This document shows, piece by piece, positions 3,394 through 13,510 of a stretch of 33,233 nucleotides of DNA; position 1 is the first letter of the stretch; each line of letters begins with the position of its first letter. The notes beneath the pieces were generated by a model, which saw only the letters and a list, made by a program, of their open reading frames with translations, had not been told where the DNA came from and made no database searches. Position numbers and translations under genes: made by a program. Source of the DNA: Alphaproteobacteria bacterium (lineage in GTDB: Bacteria > Pseudomonadota > Alphaproteobacteria > TMED109); NCBI GenBank assembly GCA_029243935.1, contig JAQWRB010000112.1, positions 1 through 33,233 on the forward strand, given 5' to 3'.

Positions 3394-4305
3394 CTATAAT
3401 AATTTTTTTCGTTTATTTTTTGATTCTAAAGCATTAAAAACTCTTGAAGAAGGGATTCTTCCTAATTTACTAAAAACAAATTTTGAAGCTTCACAAATTT
3501 TTTCTAAATCTACTCCTGTATTAATACCCATTCCATTAAGCATAAATAAAACATCTTCAGTAGCAACATTACCTTTAGCTCCTGGAGCATAAGGACAGCC
3601 TCCTAATCCTCCAACAGATGTATCTATAACTTTAATATTTAATTCTAAACTAACTAATATATTTGCTAAAGCTTGACCATATGTATCATGAAAATGGACG
3701 GCTAATTTCTCAACTCCTATTGCATCTCTGCATGCCATTAGCATATGTTTAGTTTTTATAGGAGTTCCGCTTCCAATTGTATCACCTAGAGAAATTTCAT
3801 AACATCCCATCTTGGCTAATTCTTCAGCTTGCTTTGCAACTTTTAACGGTTGAATTTCATTCTCATAAGGACAAAACATAACAGTTGATATATAACCTCT
3901 AACTTTCATACCTTTAACTAATGCTTCCTCAGCGACTTCTTTAGCTCTAGCCATAGCTTCGCTGACTGAACAATTTGTATTTTTTTTTGAAAACGTTTCG
4001 CTTGGAGTAGCAAACACACAAGCAGTATCTGCATTAAATTTTAAAGCATCATCTAAACCTTTAATATTTGGCGTTAAAACTGGGTACATTATGCCCTGTT
4101 TTTTCTTAATTTGTGTCATAACAACACTAGAATCCGCCATAGCAGGAACCCATTTAGGAGATACAAATGCACCGCTTTCTATAAACTTTAAACCTGTAGC
4201 TGATAGCATATTAATAAATATAACTTTTTCATCAGTTTCTAATGGGATATTTTCATTTTGAAGCCCATCTCTAGGACCTACCTCATATAGGGTAATCTCT
4301 GTCAT
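3394..4305 (-). CDS. hmgL: Hydroxymethylglutaryl-CoA lyase
   Basis: YEVGPRDGLQNE N terminus; AVHFHDTYGQALAN; GGLGGCPYAPGAKGNVATEDVLFML active-site region. Confidence 0.93.
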   Translation of the reverse strand: MTEITLYEVGPRDGLQNENIPLETDEKVIFINMLSATGLKFIESGAFVSPKWVPAMADSSVVMTQIKKKQGIMYPVLTPNIKGLDDALKFNADTACVFATPSETFSKKNTNCSVSEAMARAKEVAEEALVKGMKVRGYISTVMFCPYENEIQPLKVAKQAEELAKMGCYEISLGDTIGSGTPIKTKHMLMACRDAIGVEKLAVHFHDTYGQALANILVSLELNIKVIDTSVGGLGGCPYAPGAKGNVATEDVLFMLNGMGINTGVDLEKICEASKFVFSKLGRIPSSRVFNALESKNKRKKLL

Positions 4306-6290
4306 TATTTTTCTTTCATTTGGGCTACTGTATAACCTTCATCAACCTGTTGGCCCTCTTTTACATTAATTTTAATTATTTTTCCAGAATAAGGGGCCAA
4401 AATGGAATGCTCCATTTTCATAGCTTCAATTATTACTAAAATATCTCCTTTCTTTACTTGCTGATTATTTTTAGAAAAAACTTTAGCAATCTTGCCTGGA
4501 ACAGGCGAATCCATCGAGCCCTCAGATGCTTCTAATTTTATATCTAAATAAAATTTATCTCTAATATTTAAATTTAAAGAATAGCCACTTTGATTAATAT
4601 AAATATTGTCATTATTAACTGTAAAATATATATTTTCTATTTTTTTATTATTACGAAGTAAACTTAATTTTTTAGAAAAATCATCGTTTAATATTTTAAA
4701 AATATTCTTATTTTTTCTTTCCTCATCAATAACTAAGAACTCACTAGAATTTAATATCTTAACTTCATAATTAAAAACTTCTTTATCATAGATTAAAGAT
4801 ATATTTTCAAAATCATTACCTAAATGTCTCCAATTTATATTATTATGCCAAGGTGATAAACTCTTACTTATATAATAAGAGCTCCTAAATTTTATATATA
4901 ATGCTGCCGCTGAATCAAGTAATAAATCTTTACTCTCTTTACTTGATATTAATTTTTTCCAAAATTTATTTATAAAATCTGTATTAATTTTTTTTTCTGC
5001 AAAGGCAGAAACTTTTATTATCTTATTTAAAAAATCTATATTGTTTTTAATTCCTTCTAATCTTGTATTTTCTAAAGCAAAAGAGAGTTTTTTAATTGCA
5101 TCATCTCTATTAACTCCGTATGAAATAATTTTAGCAATCATCGGGTCATAATATGATGAAACTTCATCATTAGCTAAGTATCCTGTATCTAGTCTTAAAT
5201 AAGGCTTATCTGGAAAATTAAATTCTAGTATTTTACCTGGTGATGGTTGGAAATTTTTTTCGGGAATTTCTGCATAAACTCTGGCTTCTATTGCATGACC
5301 CTTAATAGAATCTTTATTGTAATCTAAAATTATCTTTTCATTGTTAGCAACTCTAATTTGCAATTCAACTAAATCTAAACCTAATATTAATTCTGTAACT
5401 GGGTGCTCAACTTGTAAGCGCGTATTCATTTCCATAAAATAAAAATTATTTTTTTCTAAAAGAAACTCTATAGTTCCTGCTCCAGAATATGAAATACTTT
5501 TTGCCACTTGCTTAGCTTGAAAAGCCATTCCTTCTCTAACTTCTAAATTAATGTTTGTAGCAGGTGCTTCTTCAATAACTTTTTGATGACGCCTTTGAAT
5601 ACTGCAGTCTCTATCCGCTAAAGTATAAATATTTCCATAATTATCTGCTAAAATTTGAACCTCAATATGCCTAGGGTTTTGCAAATACTTTTCTATTAAT
5701 ATACTATCATTCCCAAATGAACTTAGAGCTTCCCTTTTTGCCCCTTCTAATTTATTTATAATTTCGTTCTTTTTATTTATAACATGCATTCCTTTTCCAC
5801 CTCCTCCTGCGGAGGCTTTAATAATCAAAGGAAAACCTATATTTTCACATTTTTTTAATATCTGATTCTCTGATAAACCGTCTGCTGAAAACCCTGGCAA
5901 TACTGGAACACCTGCTTTTTCCATCATACTTCTTGCATCATTTTTCAATGACATACTTTTCATAGATGAAACAGAGGGGCCAATAAATTTTATATTATTT
6001 TTTTTTAATGCTTTTGCAAAATCAGGATTTTCAGATAAAAATCCATATCCAGGATGGATTGCATCAACCTTATTTTCTAATGCAATTTTTATTATTTTTT
6101 TATAATTTAAATAACTGTTTTCAGCTAAGGAATCACCTAGATGAATTGACTGGTCAGCTTCACGAGCATGCAAAGCATTTTTATCAGCATCAGAATATAC
6201 AGCAACTACAAAAATACCCATGGATTTACAGGTGCGTGTAATCCTAGTTGCTATTTCTCCTCTATTAGCTATCAATATTTTTTTTATCAT
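4305..6290 (-). CDS. mccA: Methylcrotonyl-CoA carboxylase biotin-containing alpha subunit
   Basis: Biotin carboxylase fold (ILIANRGEIATRI, SAGGGGKGMHV, MEMNTRLQVEHPVTE) with a C-terminal biotinyl site EAMKMEH; context of mccB/liuC/hmgL. Confidence 0.93.
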   Translation of the reverse strand: MIKKILIANRGEIATRITRTCKSMGIFVVAVYSDADKNALHAREADQSIHLGDSLAENSYLNYKKIIKIALENKVDAIHPGYGFLSENPDFAKALKKNNIKFIGPSVSSMKSMSLKNDARSMMEKAGVPVLPGFSADGLSENQILKKCENIGFPLIIKASAGGGGKGMHVINKKNEIINKLEGAKREALSSFGNDSILIEKYLQNPRHIEVQILADNYGNIYTLADRDCSIQRRHQKVIEEAPATNINLEVREGMAFQAKQVAKSISYSGAGTIEFLLEKNNFYFMEMNTRLQVEHPVTELILGLDLVELQIRVANNEKIILDYNKDSIKGHAIEARVYAEIPEKNFQPSPGKILEFNFPDKPYLRLDTGYLANDEVSSYYDPMIAKIISYGVNRDDAIKKLSFALENTRLEGIKNNIDFLNKIIKVSAFAEKKINTDFINKFWKKLISSKESKDLLLDSAAALYIKFRSSYYISKSLSPWHNNINWRHLGNDFENISLIYDKEVFNYEVKILNSSEFLVIDEERKNKNIFKILNDDFSKKLSLLRNNKKIENIYFTVNNDNIYINQSGYSLNLNIRDKFYLDIKLEASEGSMDSPVPGKIAKVFSKNNQQVKKGDILVIIEAMKMEHSILAPYSGKIIKINVKEGQQVDEGYTVAQMKEK

Positions 6291-7071
6291 TTATCTGCCA
6301 ATTTGGTTTTCTCTTGTTTAAAAATGCTTCTGTTCCTTCTTTGCCTTCATTAGTTGCTCTTGCATCTGCTATCCTTTTAGCCGTTTCCATCATAAGCACT
6401 TCATCTATATTTTTTCCTTCTACAAAAAATATTAATTCTTTTGAGGATTTAAGAGCTTTAGGTCCACCTTTTAATATATTATCTATATTTTTTTCAATTA
6501 AAGAATTAAAGTCTTCATTTTTTGCATGTTGATGCAATAATCCCATATGAAAAGCCTCTTCTGAAGAAATGATTGTTGAAGTTAAAAATAAATATCTAGC
6601 ATTTCTAGAACCCACTGCCCTAACTACATACGGACTAATAGTTGCCGGAATTAAGCCTAGTCTTACTTCAGATAAAGAAAACTTTGCATATTCATTTCCA
6701 ATTGCTATATCACATGCAGCTACTAAACCCACACCACCCCCAAAAGCAGCCCCGTTTACAGCGGCAATAGTCGGAAAAGGCAAGGAATATAATTTTTTTA
6801 GCATAACAGCTAATTTCATTGCATCACTCTGATTTTCTTCGTGACTTACACCAGACATTCGTCTCATCCAATCTAAATCACCTCCAGCAGAAAATGCTTT
6901 TCCTTCTCCTGTAAGAACTAGCGCTCTAATATCTTTATTATTTGATATCTCTGATAAACAAATATCTAATTCTTTAATTAAATTTTCATCAAAAGCGTTC
7001 ATAACCTGCGGACGGTTTATATTTAAATAATAAATGCCTCTACTATCTATTTTTTTTAATAAATTTTCCAT
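6265..7071 (-). CDS. liuC: Enoyl-CoA hydratase/isomerase family, probable methylglutaconyl-CoA hydratase
   Basis: Crotonase motifs ALVLTGEGKAFSAGGDLDWMRRM and NGAAFGGGVGLVAACDIAIG; leucine-degradation context. Confidence 0.88.
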   Translation of the reverse strand: MENLLKKIDSRGIYYLNINRPQVMNAFDENLIKELDICLSEISNNKDIRALVLTGEGKAFSAGGDLDWMRRMSGVSHEENQSDAMKLAVMLKKLYSLPFPTIAAVNGAAFGGGVGLVAACDIAIGNEYAKFSLSEVRLGLIPATISPYVVRAVGSRNARYLFLTSTIISSEEAFHMGLLHQHAKNEDFNSLIEKNIDNILKGGPKALKSSKELIFFVEGKNIDEVLMMETAKRIADARATNEGKEGTEAFLNKRKPNWQINDKKNIDS

Positions 7072-7074
7072 TAT

Positions 7075-8682
7075 CTACATCCTGAATAAACCAAATTTTG
7101 TATCTTCAATTGGTTTATTGTGAGCAGCTGAAATTGACAAACCCAATACTACTCTAGTATCAGCAGGATCTATTACGCCATCATCCCATATTCTTGATGA
7201 AGCGAAATATGGATTTCCTTCTTTTTCATATTGATCTAAAATTCCATTTTTAAAACTATTTTCATCTTTCTTCAACCATTTTAGTCCTCGTCTTGCGTTT
7301 ACATCTTTTTTAACAGTAGATAAAACATTAGCCGCTTGTTCTCCTCCCATTACAGACACTCTAGAATTTGGCCAAGTCCACATAAATCTTGGATTAAATG
7401 CTCTACCACACATACCGTAATTACCAGCTCCAAATGAGCCTCCAATAATTACAGTAAATTTTGGAACATTTACTGTGGATACTGCAGTAACTAGTTTTGC
7501 TCCGTCTTTAGCTATACCGGCTTCTTCATATTTTTTACCTACCATAAAACCAGAAATATTTTGTAGAAATATAAGTGGTATTTTTCTTTGACCACATAAT
7601 TCTATAAAATGAGCACCTTTTTTTGAACTTTCTGGAAATAAAATTCCATTATTTGCAATAATACCAACAGAATACCCCATAATTTTTGCAAAACCTGTAA
7701 CTAAGGTTGCCCCATATAGTTTTTTAAATTCTAAAAATTTACTTCCATCCACTATTCTAGCTATTACTTCTCTTACATCATATGGTATTGATAAAGATGA
7801 TGGTATTACTCCGTAAATACTTTTTAAATCATAATTTGGTTCTTCTGATTTTATTAAATCAATATCTTCATTCTTTTTCTTATTAAAAGTAGCTACAATA
7901 TCTCTAGCTATTTTTAAAGCATGTTGATCATTTTCCGCTAAATGATCAGTAACTCCACTTTTTTTACTATGCAGCTCTCCTCCTCCAAGGTCTTCTGCAC
8001 TAACTACTTCTCCTGTTGCAGCTTTTACCAAAGGAGGCCCTCCTAAAAATATTGTCCCTTGATTTTTTACTATTATACATTCATCACTCATTGCTGGAAC
8101 ATATGCTCCTCCAGCCGTGCATGAACCCATTACAATAGCTATTTGAGGAATACCCATTGCCGACATATTTGATTGATTATAAAATGTTCTACCAAAGCCT
8201 TCTTTATCCGCAAACATTTCACTTTGATTGGGTAAATTTGCTCCGCCTGAATCAACTAAATAAATACAAGGAAGATGGTTTTCTAATGCTATATCTTGTG
8301 CCCTTAATTGTTTTTTTACTGTTATTGGATAATATGTTCCTCCCTTTACCGTAGCATCATTAACAATAATTACACATTCTCTTCCAGAAACACGACCAAT
8401 TCCAGTAATAAGTCCAGATCCAGGAGCTTCATCATTATAATGACCATATGCTGCAAGAGATGAGAATTCTAAAAATGGAGAACCAGGGTCTAGTAAATAT
8501 CGTATTCTCTCTCTAGGTAAAAGTTTGCCCCTAGCAATATGCCTATCAATTGCTTCTTTACCTCCTCCCATTTGAGAAAATATAACTTTATTTTTCAGGT
8601 CAGAAACTAGACCTTCCATAATGCTAGAATTTTTTATATATTCTTTAGACGTTTCATCTACCGCACTCTTAATAATATCCAT
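7075..8682 (-). CDS. mccB: Methylcrotonyl-CoA carboxylase carboxyltransferase beta subunit
   Basis: Carboxyltransferase motifs [33 protein letters not shown] and [38 protein letters not shown]. Confidence 0.94.
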
Positions 8683-8693
8683 TTACATTCTTT

Positions 8694-9884
8694 CTAGTTT
8701 AAACATCGTTCTAAAGCTATAGCTGTAGCTTCTCCTCCACCTATACATAATGAAGCTACCCCTTTATCTACTTTATACTTATGCATTGCTGCAATTAAAG
8801 TGGCTATAATTCTAGCCCCTGATGTTCCAACAGGGTGCCCTAAAGCACATGCGCCTCCATGAACATTGACTATTTCAGGAGATATGCTTAAGTCTTTCAT
8901 TGCAGCCATAGGTACAACTGCAAAAGCTTCATTTATTTCAAATAATCCAACATCTATGATATTCCAGCCAGCCTTATCTAAAACTTTTTGAATAGCGCCT
9001 ATTGGAGCCGTTGTAAACCATGCAGGATCATGACTATTGGTTGCGTGTGCAACAATTTTAGCTAATGGAATAGAATTCTTATTCTTTGCTTCTTCTTTAG
9101 TCATCATTACTAAAGCCGCAGCACCATCGGAAATGGATGAAGAGTTCGCTGCCGTAACTGTTCCAGTTTTACTAAAAGCAGGTTTAAGGTTTGAAATTTT
9201 TGATATATCAGCAGAAAAAGGTTGTTCATCATTAGTAATTTCTTGTGACCCTTTACGAGTATTAATAATTACAGACACCATTTCTTCTTTAAAAGAACCG
9301 TCTTCATTTGCCTTTTTTGCTCTCTCTAAAGACCTAATAGCAAAATTATCTTGCTCTTCTCTAGTAAACTGATATGCCTCAGCTGTAGCTTCTGCATAAG
9401 CACCCATTAAACGACCTGGTTCATAGGCATCTTCTAACCCATCTATAAACATATGATCTTGAACCTGAGCATGCCCCATTCTTAAACCACTTCTTACTTT
9501 TGGAAGAATATATGGGGCATTAGACATGCTTTCAATACCTCCTGCTAAAGTAACAAAACTTGATCCTGCCAATAATTGATCATGCGCTATCATTGCAGCC
9601 TTCATACCTGATCCACACATTTTATTAATAGTTGTTGCGCCTGCAGTATTTGGAATACCAGCACCAATTGCAGCTTGCCTTGCTGGAGCTTGACCCATAC
9701 CAGCTGGCAAAACACAACCCATTACTACATCATCTATATCTGCTGCATTAATTCCAGCTTTTTTTATAGCTCCCTTTATAGCAATGCTTCCTAAATGAGG
9801 AGCATTTTCAGAAGACAAACTACCTTGAAAACTTCCCATAGGCGTTCTAGCCATACCTGTAATCACAATATCCTTTTTGTTCAT
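8694..9884 (-). CDS. atoB: Acetyl-CoA C-acetyltransferase (thiolase)
   Basis: NKMCGSGMKAAMIAHD nucleophile region, FEINEAFAV, HGGACALGHPVGTSGARI; GGEATAIALE C terminus; AGGAG before the ATG. Confidence 0.92.
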   Translation of the reverse strand: MNKKDIVITGMARTPMGSFQGSLSSENAPHLGSIAIKGAIKKAGINAADIDDVVMGCVLPAGMGQAPARQAAIGAGIPNTAGATTINKMCGSGMKAAMIAHDQLLAGSSFVTLAGGIESMSNAPYILPKVRSGLRMGHAQVQDHMFIDGLEDAYEPGRLMGAYAEATAEAYQFTREEQDNFAIRSLERAKKANEDGSFKEEMVSVIINTRKGSQEITNDEQPFSADISKISNLKPAFSKTGTVTAANSSSISDGAAALVMMTKEEAKNKNSIPLAKIVAHATNSHDPAWFTTAPIGAIQKVLDKAGWNIIDVGLFEINEAFAVVPMAAMKDLSISPEIVNVHGGACALGHPVGTSGARIIATLIAAMHKYKVDKGVASLCIGGGEATAIALERCLN

Positions 9885-9897
9885 TTTTTTCTCCTAT

Positions 9898-10167
9898 TCA
9901 TCTACATTGATTTATACAAATAATCATTTGAGATTGACAAATTTGTTCAAATTCAGGGTTAGCACCCTCAATTTTAATGCATGCATCTCTTCTTTTGAGA
10001 CACACTTTTGCACAAATTTTAGTTTGTGTAGCCTTCTCCTCAGGATCATATGGGAATTCTGGTTTATTGTCCTGTGCCAAAACTATAGTATTATTGAATG
10101 TCAAAAATATAAAAGCTAATAAAATTAAAACAGACCTAATATTTAGATGTTTTATATTTAAAAACAT
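9898..10167 (-). CDS. Small secreted six-cysteine protein with symmetric Cys spacing, unknown function
   Basis: Signal peptide-like MFLNIKHLNIRSVLILLAFIFLTFNNTIVLA|Q; cysteines C-x3-C-x6-C-x13-C-x6-C-x3-C. ATG at 10167 has AGGAG 7 nt upstream, so the ORF-track start at 10191, inside ivd, is probably not used. Confidence 0.75.
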   Translation of the reverse strand: MFLNIKHLNIRSVLILLAFIFLTFNNTIVLAQDNKPEFPYDPEEKATQTKICAKVCLKRRDACIKIEGANPEFEQICQSQMIICINQCR

Positions 10168-10177
10168 AACTTTACTC

Positions 10178-11350
10178 CTAAATTGATCCATTAAAAATTT
10201 CTCTACCTATTAGCATTCTTCTTATCTCACTAGTACCTGCACCAATTTCATATAACTTAGCATCTCTTAAAAGGCGTCCTACAGGATAATCATTAGTATA
10301 ACCATTGCCACCCAAGATTTGAATTGCCTGCAAAGCAATTTCTGTACATTTTTCAGCAGAATATAAAATAGCACCTGCTGAATCTTTTCTAGTAGTTTCT
10401 CTTCTATCACAAGCTTGAGCAACATTATAAACATAAGATTTAGATGCATTCATCGAAGTATATATATCTGCTAATTTACCTTGCATCAATTGAAAGCTAC
10501 CAATAGGTTTTTCAAATTGTTTTCTTTCATGAACATATGGAACTATTATGTCCCAACAGCTTTGCATAACACCAAGTGGACCCCCTGCTAAAACTACTCG
10601 CTCATAATCTAAGCCACTCATCAATATTTTTGCCCCTGAATTTAGTTCACCTAATACATTTTCTTCTGGCACTACACAATTATCAAATATAAGTTCGCAA
10701 GTATTAGAACCACGCATACCTAATTTGTCTAACTTTTCCCCCGTAGAAAAACCTTCAAAATGTTTTTCAATAATAAATGCTGTAATACCTTTAGAACCAG
10801 CACTCTTATCTGTTTTAGCATATACAACTAAATAATCTGCATCTGGCCCGTTAGTTATCCACATTTTTGACCCATTTAAAATATAATGGTCCGTTTTTTT
10901 TATGGCAACCGTCTTCATTCCTACGACATCTGAACCTGCTACAGATTCACTCATAGCTAGAGCTCCAACTTTTTTTCCAGAAATTAAACCTGGTAGATAT
11001 TTTTCACGTTGTTGATTATTTCCATTTAATCTTATCTGGTTTATACATAAATTCGAATGTGCTCCATAAGAAAGGCCTACTGAAGCCGAAGCTCTACTAA
11101 TCTCTTCCACACAAACTGTATGCTCCAAATATCCTAGACCACTTCCACCCCATTTTTCTTCAACAGTAACGCCAAGTATTCCTAAACTTCCCATTTTTTC
11201 CCATAAATCACTAGGAAAGTCATTATTCTTATCTATTTCAGCTGCTCTTGGCGCAATTTCATTCTGTGCAAAACTAGATACAGTTTCTCTAATCATATCC
11301 GCTGTTTCACCCAAATAAAAATTGAAATCTTCTGGTCTATTAATAATCAT
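10178..11350 (-). CDS. ivd: Isovaleryl-CoA dehydrogenase
   Basis: Acyl-CoA dehydrogenase motifs [74 protein letters not shown]; liu cluster context; GGAG before the ATG. Confidence 0.92.
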
Positions 11351-11366
11351 TATATCTCCATATAAC

Positions 11367-12773
11367 TTAGGTTAATAAAATTTTTGCTAAACCTAAAAAC
11401 ACAAAGAAACCTACTACATCTGTAACCGTAGTCAACAAAATAGAAGCTCCTAATGCAGGATCAATTTTCCAACGTTGTAAGAGCAAAGGAATTGAGGCAC
11501 CAAAAAAACCTGCTACAAACAAATTAAATAACATAGCTAATGCTATAACTATTCCTAGTCCCTTCTCACCAAACCATAAAGTAGCAACTAAACCAACTAT
11601 AATGGCAAAAATAATACCATTAATAATACCCACTAATATTTCTTTACCAAATACTCTTAATGCATTTGACTGATTTAATTCCCTTGTTGCAAGAGCTCTA
11701 ACTGCAACTGTTAAAGTCTGAGTACCAGCATTACCTCCCATTGAAGCAACGATTGGCATTAAAACTGCTAAGGCAACAATTTGTTTTATTGTACCCTCAA
11801 ATATACCTATCGCAATTGACGCCAATATAGCTGTAAGTAAATTAACAAATAACCAAGTAAATCTACTTCTTGCTGTTTGCCAAGCAGCCATATATATATC
11901 TGTATCTCCCGATATACCAGCCAGCTTCAACATATCTTCTTCTGCCTCTTCCTGTATAACTTCTACAACGTCATCGACTGTTACCATGCCTATTAATCTG
12001 TTTTGAGGATTTACTACAGGTGCAGATGTCAAATCATATTGTTCAAATAAAAAAGCCATATCTTCTTGGTCCATTGCTACAGGAACAACGACAGGTTCAG
12101 TAGTCATAATATCAGATAAAACTACTTTTCTTTCACTTCGCATTAATTTATGAAGCGGTATTGTTCCTACTGGAATATGTCTAGGGTCTACAATAAATAT
12201 TGCATAAAATTGATCTGGCACTTTTATTGAACCTCTCAAATAATCAATTACCTGTCCTACATTCCAATAACGCGGAACAGCAACATAATCTCTCTGCATT
12301 AATCGACCTGCAGACATTTCTGGAAACTCTAAAGCTTGAATAATTAAGTTTCTAGCATCACTAGAAATTTGATTTAAAAGATCAGTTCTTTTTTTTGTAT
12401 CTAAGGTTTCTAAAATATAAGCCGCATCATCTGTATCTAACTGACCAATTAAATCTGCTAATATAGTGGGTTTATAATTTTCTATTACATCCTTTAATAC
12501 TTGTTCATCTAAAGATGCTAAAGTATCTGGAGGTAGTCTATTTTGCAAAATTGAAAATAATATTTTTCTATCTTCTTGAGATAAAATTTCAAAAATATCT
12601 GCAATATCTGCAGGATGCAAAGATAGAATATCTGCTTCTAAGCCTTGCTGGTTTTTAACTTTAATATTATCTTTAGTCTTATCAATAAACTTAGCAGAAA
12701 TACCAAAACCAAAAGAAGTTTCATTATTATATATATTAATATTTTCTGCTATAGTTTTAGAATTATTTTGCAT
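11367..12773 (-). CDS. mgtE: MgtE-family magnesium transporter
   Basis: [14 protein letters not shown] domain, CBS pair, [25 protein letters not shown]-terminal TM region. ATG at 12773 is preferred over 12794 because AGGAG lies between them. Confidence 0.9.
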
Positions 12774-12807
12774 TTTCCTAAAACTCCTATGCATTTAAAT
12801 TATTAAT

Positions 12808-12856: not shown

Positions 12857-13510
12857 ATGATTTCCTTAAATTTAAAATCTACTAATTCGAAGCCTATTAA
12901 ATGGAAATATGATAAAGATTTAGTTCCCTACAATACTGCTATTATAAAAATGGAAGACCGTATTCAAAAAATTTATGAGCATAAATCATCCGAACTAATA
13001 TGGCTATTAGAACACCCTTCGATTTATACATGTGGAACTAGTGCTAGAAAAGAACAGATTCTAAACCATACAGAAATTCCAATTGTTAACTCAGCAAGAG
13101 GAGGACAAGTTACTTATCATGGTCCTGGACAAAGAATAATCTATGTAATGCTGAATCTGAATTATAGAAAAAAAGATATTAGAGGGTATGTTAAAACACT
13201 AGAAAACTGGATGATAAAATCCCTCAAACATTTTGGTATAAAAGCATATACATGTAGTAATAGAATAGGAATATGGGCAGATGGACCTAATGGGGAATCA
13301 AAGATAGGTGCTATTGGAATTAGAATAAGTCGTTGGATTACATATCATGGCATATCAATAAATATTGACCCAGACCTTAGCTATTATAAAAATATAATTC
13401 CATGTGGATTAAAAGATTACCCGGTCACTTCTTTTAAAGAACTTGGTTATAATTATAGCATGAAAGAATTTGATATAATTATAAAAAAATCATCCAAAGA
13501 AATATTTTAA
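12857..13510 (+). CDS. lipB: Octanoyltransferase (lipoate biosynthesis)
   Basis: LLEHPSIYTCGTSA, RGGQVTYHGPGQRIIYVMLNL, IGAIGIRISRWITYHGISINI, PCGLKDYPVTSFKEL. Confidence 0.93.
   Translation: MISLNLKSTNSKPIKWKYDKDLVPYNTAIIKMEDRIQKIYEHKSSELIWLLEHPSIYTCGTSARKEQILNHTEIPIVNSARGGQVTYHGPGQRIIYVMLNLNYRKKDIRGYVKTLENWMIKSLKHFGIKAYTCSNRIGIWADGPNGESKIGAIGIRISRWITYHGISINIDPDLSYYKNIIPCGLKDYPVTSFKELGYNYSMKEFDIIIKKSSKEIF

Follow-up and report, generated by a model that had tools for sequence, protein, structure and literature searches.

Between the ivd and thiolase genes of a leucine-catabolism operon, an alphaproteobacterial contig (JAQWRB010000112.1, assembly GCA_029243935.1; its full 33,233 nucleotides are referred to here as the window) carries a short gene whose product appears to represent a previously undescribed family of exported proteins. 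The family is conserved, is missed by the standard family libraries and is predicted to form a minimal, palindromic helical hairpin with three disulfides. Table 1 presents an overview of the gene, its parts and its neighbors.

Table 1. Coordinates in the window of the six-cysteine gene, its parts and the surrounding operon.
Feature	Position	Strand	Basis or remark
ORF of the six-cysteine protein, 89 codons	9898..10167	-	Translation; homologues with dN/dS well below 1
ORF from the alternative in-frame ATG at 10191, 97 aa	9898..10191	-	14 nt overlap with ivd
Predicted signal peptide, residues 1-31 (VLA/Q)	10075..10167	-	Hydrophobic core, charged n-region, -3/-1 site, fast divergence
Mature part, residues 32-89, 58 aa	9901..10074	-	Within-genus dN/dS 0.04-0.09
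PEFPYDPE motif, residues 36-43 (P36 and F38-P42 invariant)	10039..10062	-	Alignments A1-A4
Predicted antiparallel helical hairpin, helices 42-67 and 71-88	9904..10044	-	AlphaFold2 local pLDDT 82-94; symmetric cysteine pairs
AGGAG ribosome-binding site, overlapping the ivd stop	10175..10179	-	Sequence
AGGAG ribosome-binding site of the thiolase, just 3' of the six-cysteine gene's stop	9891..9895	-	Sequence
mgtE, directly upstream of ivd	11367..12794	-	Pfam
ivd-type acyl-CoA dehydrogenase, upstream neighbor	10178..11350	-	Pfam
Thiolase, downstream neighbor	8694..9884	-	Pfam
Rest of leucine operon: carboxyltransferase (mccB-like), enoyl-CoA hydratase, biotin carboxylase (mccA-like), HMG-CoA-lyase-like	3394..8682	-	Pfam

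Judged from the comparison of genomes, the ORF is a real gene, conserved and under strong selection in its order, because it has homologues, a fixed place, a low dN/dS ratio and invariant cysteines and motif. Homologues were found at 47-85% identity in a search of related genomes, and a profile search located the gene in 16 of the 28 genomes of the order, in single copy each time. They keep the six cysteines and the leader, and their reading frame is intact, including in GC-rich genomes. Those of the refuting outcomes listed in the initial annotation that could be checked all turned out in favor of its interpretation. By the NG86 method, dN/dS of the mature part was 0.07 for G000/G003, 0.07 for G000/G001 and 0.04 for G001/G002; the within-genus range of 0.04-0.09 lies near the values of ivd and thiolase and far under the ratio near 1 that the initial annotation had named as a warning sign. 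In genus g7, where divergence is low, pairs gave 0.07-0.36.

Retranslation of the minus strand reproduced exactly the 89-residue product described in that annotation, with its VLA/Q junction and the cysteine stretch C-AKV-C-LKRRDA-C-IKIEGANPEFEQI-C-QSQMII-C-INQ-C-R. The translation signals stand as well: the ivd stop codon (TAG, 10180-10178) shares bases with an AGGAG (10179-10175) that lies 7 nt ahead of the ATG at 10167, and the thiolase ATG at 9884 follows its own AGGAG (9895-9891). The start at 10167 is less secure, as the ATG at 10191 is also possible. This upstream ATG is retained in the nearest genera, g1 and g2, and its equivalent is the sole ATG in the leader of three genomes (G001, G004, G002); in genera g4, g6 and g7 the start is a TAATG or TGATG at the ivd stop. 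From the sequence, then, the exact start is uncertain, and the predicted exported part is the same from either ATG. The arrangement of the three genes suggests that translation of the six-cysteine gene is coupled to that of ivd and thiolase.

The leader was assigned by the simple criteria of hydrophobicity, charge, -3/-1 site and divergence. Its hydrophobic core has a KD15 of 2.47, and the leaders of the homologues likewise have a hydrophobic core, a mostly positive n-region and -3/-1 sites that read VLA/Q, SIA/Q, LYA/E or ALA/Q. Between most genomes, identity is 7-25% in the leader and 57-97% in the mature part; a fast-diverging leader attached to a conserved mature part is typical of signal peptides. 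Such a leader points to export of the protein by the Sec route. The long leaders could be uncleaved membrane anchors.

In the mature part, cysteines C52, C56 and C63 on one side and C77, C84 and C88 on the other give gaps of 3-6-13-6-3, the palindrome reported by the initial annotation. The GC-rich sister genus g7 has a longer protein (three measured members have 162-189 residues), and its gaps are 3-6-9-6-3; the palindrome therefore recurs, and it is the central spacing of 13 that is not conserved. With six cysteines and their span held fixed, palindromic arrangements account for 0.26%, a post hoc figure. The six cysteines and the PxFPYDP motif (P36, F38-P42) are invariant throughout the family alignments and E43 and R60 nearly so; aside from the cysteines, the motif and R60, these alignments hold no conserved histidine or methionine and no catalytic set. 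In alignment A2, the row for L007 had an ambiguous residue entered as proline, and A3 and A4 exclude that row. The long g7 homologues carry two more PFP segments upstream of the PFPY one, making PFP(I/L/Y) three times over; this repetition of PFPI or PFPL ahead of PFPYDPE (L010-L016, L042-L048) suggests a putative repeated short binding motif.

A helical hairpin had been put forward as a natural model, and AlphaFold2 predicts one for both members that were modeled, although they are only 28% identical. Both predictions are antiparallel with a local pLDDT of about 90, a value to be read in light of shallow input alignments (13-14 rows) and the ease with which two-helix hairpins are predicted. 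In the domain of the g7 homologue, the helices span residues 11-34 and 39-55 with a core pLDDT of about 95. On each helix the three cysteines are no more than 40 degrees apart, and the symmetric pairs have residue numbers that sum to a constant (i+j = 140, 140, 140), so that their members sit at the same level of the antiparallel hairpin. Since the levels match in this way, the pairing C1-C6, C2-C5 and C3-C4 is favored in the model. The genome also encodes enzymes of the kind that could form these bonds: a leader-bearing, DsbA-like protein with a CSYC motif (L068) and a DsbB-like protein whose motif is CHLC (L084).

Consistent with the earlier failure to recognize a family, the protein had no match in Pfam (even at permissive E-values), NCBIfam or PHROGs. 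A match to PhrA (E 0.049) fell on the leader and was rejected as a hydrophobic chance match, and the sequence search of the PDB returned only a plant mitoribosomal match on PYDPE (E 0.075-0.6), also attributed to chance. Fold searches of the PDB with the two models (Foldseek) gave nothing significant, the best E-values being 3.1 and 4.7. Outside the order, no credible homologue was found in two overlapping sets of 289 and 385 genomes from the class or in 399 genomes sampled from the phylum. In the profile searches of large genomes, the best 16-22 candidates were scored. Several weak profile matches from other families (L033, L034, L117-L119, L121) were discarded for internal stops, an absent leader, missing cysteines or a position antisense to another gene, and two more (L065, L120) for internal stops as judged from the match tables alone.

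The closest parallels are analogies. The initial annotation likened the protein to the twin CX3C small Tims and twin CX9C (CHCH) proteins, which have antiparallel helices, symmetric cysteines, nested disulfides and oxidation outside the cytosol, all as predicted here. The likeness holds for the predicted hairpin and goes no further than analogy, as Pfam and PDB searches gave no sequence or significant fold match to these proteins. Two CXnC motifs with four cysteines and two rungs (C1-C4, C2-C3) define them, whereas the present protein has six cysteines and a predicted three rungs; they also depend on Mia40 import and lack a cleaved Sec leader, in contrast to the Sec-type leader and the DsbA-like and DsbB-like proteins found here. 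Other disulfide-stapled helical hairpins are the B-IV neurotoxin (four disulfides), kappa-KTx and the plant alpha-hairpinins (PMC6410017, PMC11722136). Like the predicted product they are small, secreted and cross-linked; they are eukaryotic venom or defense peptides, and no common ancestry with it is implied; the B-IV structure, 1VIB, was matched by Foldseek at chance level (E 7.3). By analogy and from the models, the six-cysteine protein may work as a stapled helical hairpin in the manner of small Tims, B-IV or alpha-hairpinins, and it is a member of none of these groups.

The place of the gene is as constant as its cysteines. In all 15 genomes in which both genes are assembled, it lies between ivd and thiolase, the context whose conservation the initial annotation had proposed to check, and in the sixteenth carrier (G006) a fragment at a contig end adjoins thiolase and mccB. 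In G005, a genome 96% complete, ivd, mccB and the six-cysteine gene are all absent. The sister clade, consisting of genera g3, g5 and g8, has an ivd-thiolase gap of 32-42 nt and no such gene, and six genomes of the same family have adjacent ivd and thiolase genes without it. Because the sister clade keeps the operon intact, leucine catabolism does not, on this genomic evidence, need the six-cysteine protein. In a tree of ivd and thiolase, a single branch parts carriers from non-carriers. When outgroups are added the root is unresolved and the data do not reject a single clade of carriers (p-AU 0.44), so that the tree is compatible with a single gain of the gene, alone or together with one loss. 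Nothing comparable lies between ivd and thiolase in the outgroup orders where the two adjoin (L070, L076, L078). Elsewhere in the window, a lipB-like gene (12857-13510) encoded on the other strand separates the mgtE-ivd operon from a propionyl-CoA carboxylase-like pair, and the C-terminal third of a 203-aa ORF (36-647) corresponds to only a portion (positions 172-238 of 295) of PF06181, the urate oxidase N-terminal model.

A second exported cysteine protein occupies the same place in another family of bacteria. In the family of G049, which is alphaproteobacterial and, at a guess, rhodobacterial, a secreted LprI protein (PF07007, DUF1311) directly follows ivd in the leucine operon of 11 of 41 genera. 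These ivd-linked proteins (L082, L085-L095, L109-L111) have six conserved cysteines, and in three genomes (G049, G682, G717) the gene is a tandem pair. They are small and cysteine-containing like the six-cysteine protein, and exported as it is predicted to be; they differ from it in length, in cysteine pattern and in their motifs WD..LN..Y and QR.W...RD.C. Homology was rejected, as hhalign gave a probability of 0.2% against eight ivd-linked LprI proteins and the Pfam LprI model does not match the six-cysteine protein. ScwA of Salmonella, an LprI protein, is a periplasmic substrate of DsbA/DsbB with two disulfides and controls how much of the lytic transglycosylase MltD is present (PMC7933661). 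A literature search found no papers that connect LprI to ivd or DUF1311 to leucine. The presence of two unrelated exported cysteine proteins at one operon position reflects either coincidence or a tie between leucine use and the envelope.

As to function, we see about an even chance that the product is a small binding protein of the periplasm, stapled by disulfides and made together with the leucine pathway; it might also be anchored in the membrane or secreted further. It would be translated from the leucine-catabolism mRNA in coupling with ivd and thiolase, exported through Sec, and oxidized, probably by the encoded DsbA/DsbB-type enzymes, into a two-helix hairpin with a three-rung ladder of C1-C6, C2-C5 and C3-C4. 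The rigid hairpin could then present the invariant PxFPYDP segment to a putative partner in the envelope, and an envelope enzyme or transporter may in this way be stabilized, inhibited or scaffolded during leucine or isovalerate use. This reading is favored because of the fixed ivd-thiolase place, the joint absence with the pathway in G005, the dN/dS values and the invariant cysteines and motif, together with the predicted hairpin, the palindromic ladder kept at two loop lengths, the Dsb proteins and the lack of a catalytic set. The position of LprI after ivd and the periplasmic location of ScwA lend it further support, although the LprI parallel could be coincidental given that the profiles show no similarity.

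The main alternative is that the gene is a passenger, encoding a lineage-specific exported protein with an envelope role unrelated to leucine, which entered the operon by chance and was kept there for strong, regular expression. We regard this as possible but on the unlikely side. It would accommodate the intact operon of the sister clade, the empty ivd-thiolase junction of the outgroup orders and a tree that requires a single gain and at most one loss. A passenger would be less expected, however, to hold its place across five genera despite great change in codon and genome GC, to be absent together with the pathway in G005, or to have a counterpart in another family, where an unrelated secreted cysteine protein occupies that position.

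The remaining alternatives concern the nature of the protein itself. That the six cysteines serve as copper or zinc ligands in a periplasmic metal-binding protein, instead of forming disulfides, appears improbable. Helical CX3C motifs can bind metal, as reduced small Tims bind zinc (PMC3759932), and mgtE lies upstream; however, mgtE immediately precedes ivd in all the genomes read from the order, carriers and non-carriers of the six-cysteine gene alike, conserved histidine or methionine is absent, the palindromic pairs at matching helix levels suit disulfide rungs, and the genome encodes Dsb enzymes. A secreted bioactive peptide, akin to a bacteriocin or toxin, is still harder to credit: stapled helical hairpins are indeed common among animal toxins and plant defense peptides, with B-IV, kappa-KTx and the alpha-hairpinins as the fold type, but the match to 1VIB is not significant, genes for immunity, export or processing are absent nearby, the location is fixed in a housekeeping catabolic operon, and selection within the genus is strongly purifying rather than diversifying. 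Finally, the ORF is short and belongs to no database family, yet a spurious ORF without a protein product has next to no chance of being the answer and is refuted by the synonymous bias of its substitutions, the frame kept by homologues even in GC-rich genomes, and its ribosome-binding sites.

The fixed place of this predicted exported protein in a cytosolic catabolic operon, taken with the LprI parallel, points to a putative link between branched-chain amino acid (BCAA) catabolism and the cell envelope. A broader proposal is that Alphaproteobacteria have, at least twice and independently, put an exported, cysteine-rich helical protein in the middle of the leucine operon, that BCAA use is thereby coupled to control of the envelope from the periplasm, and that bacteria have in the triple-rung stapled hairpin a new fold; taken as a whole, we consider this doubtful and offer it as speculation.
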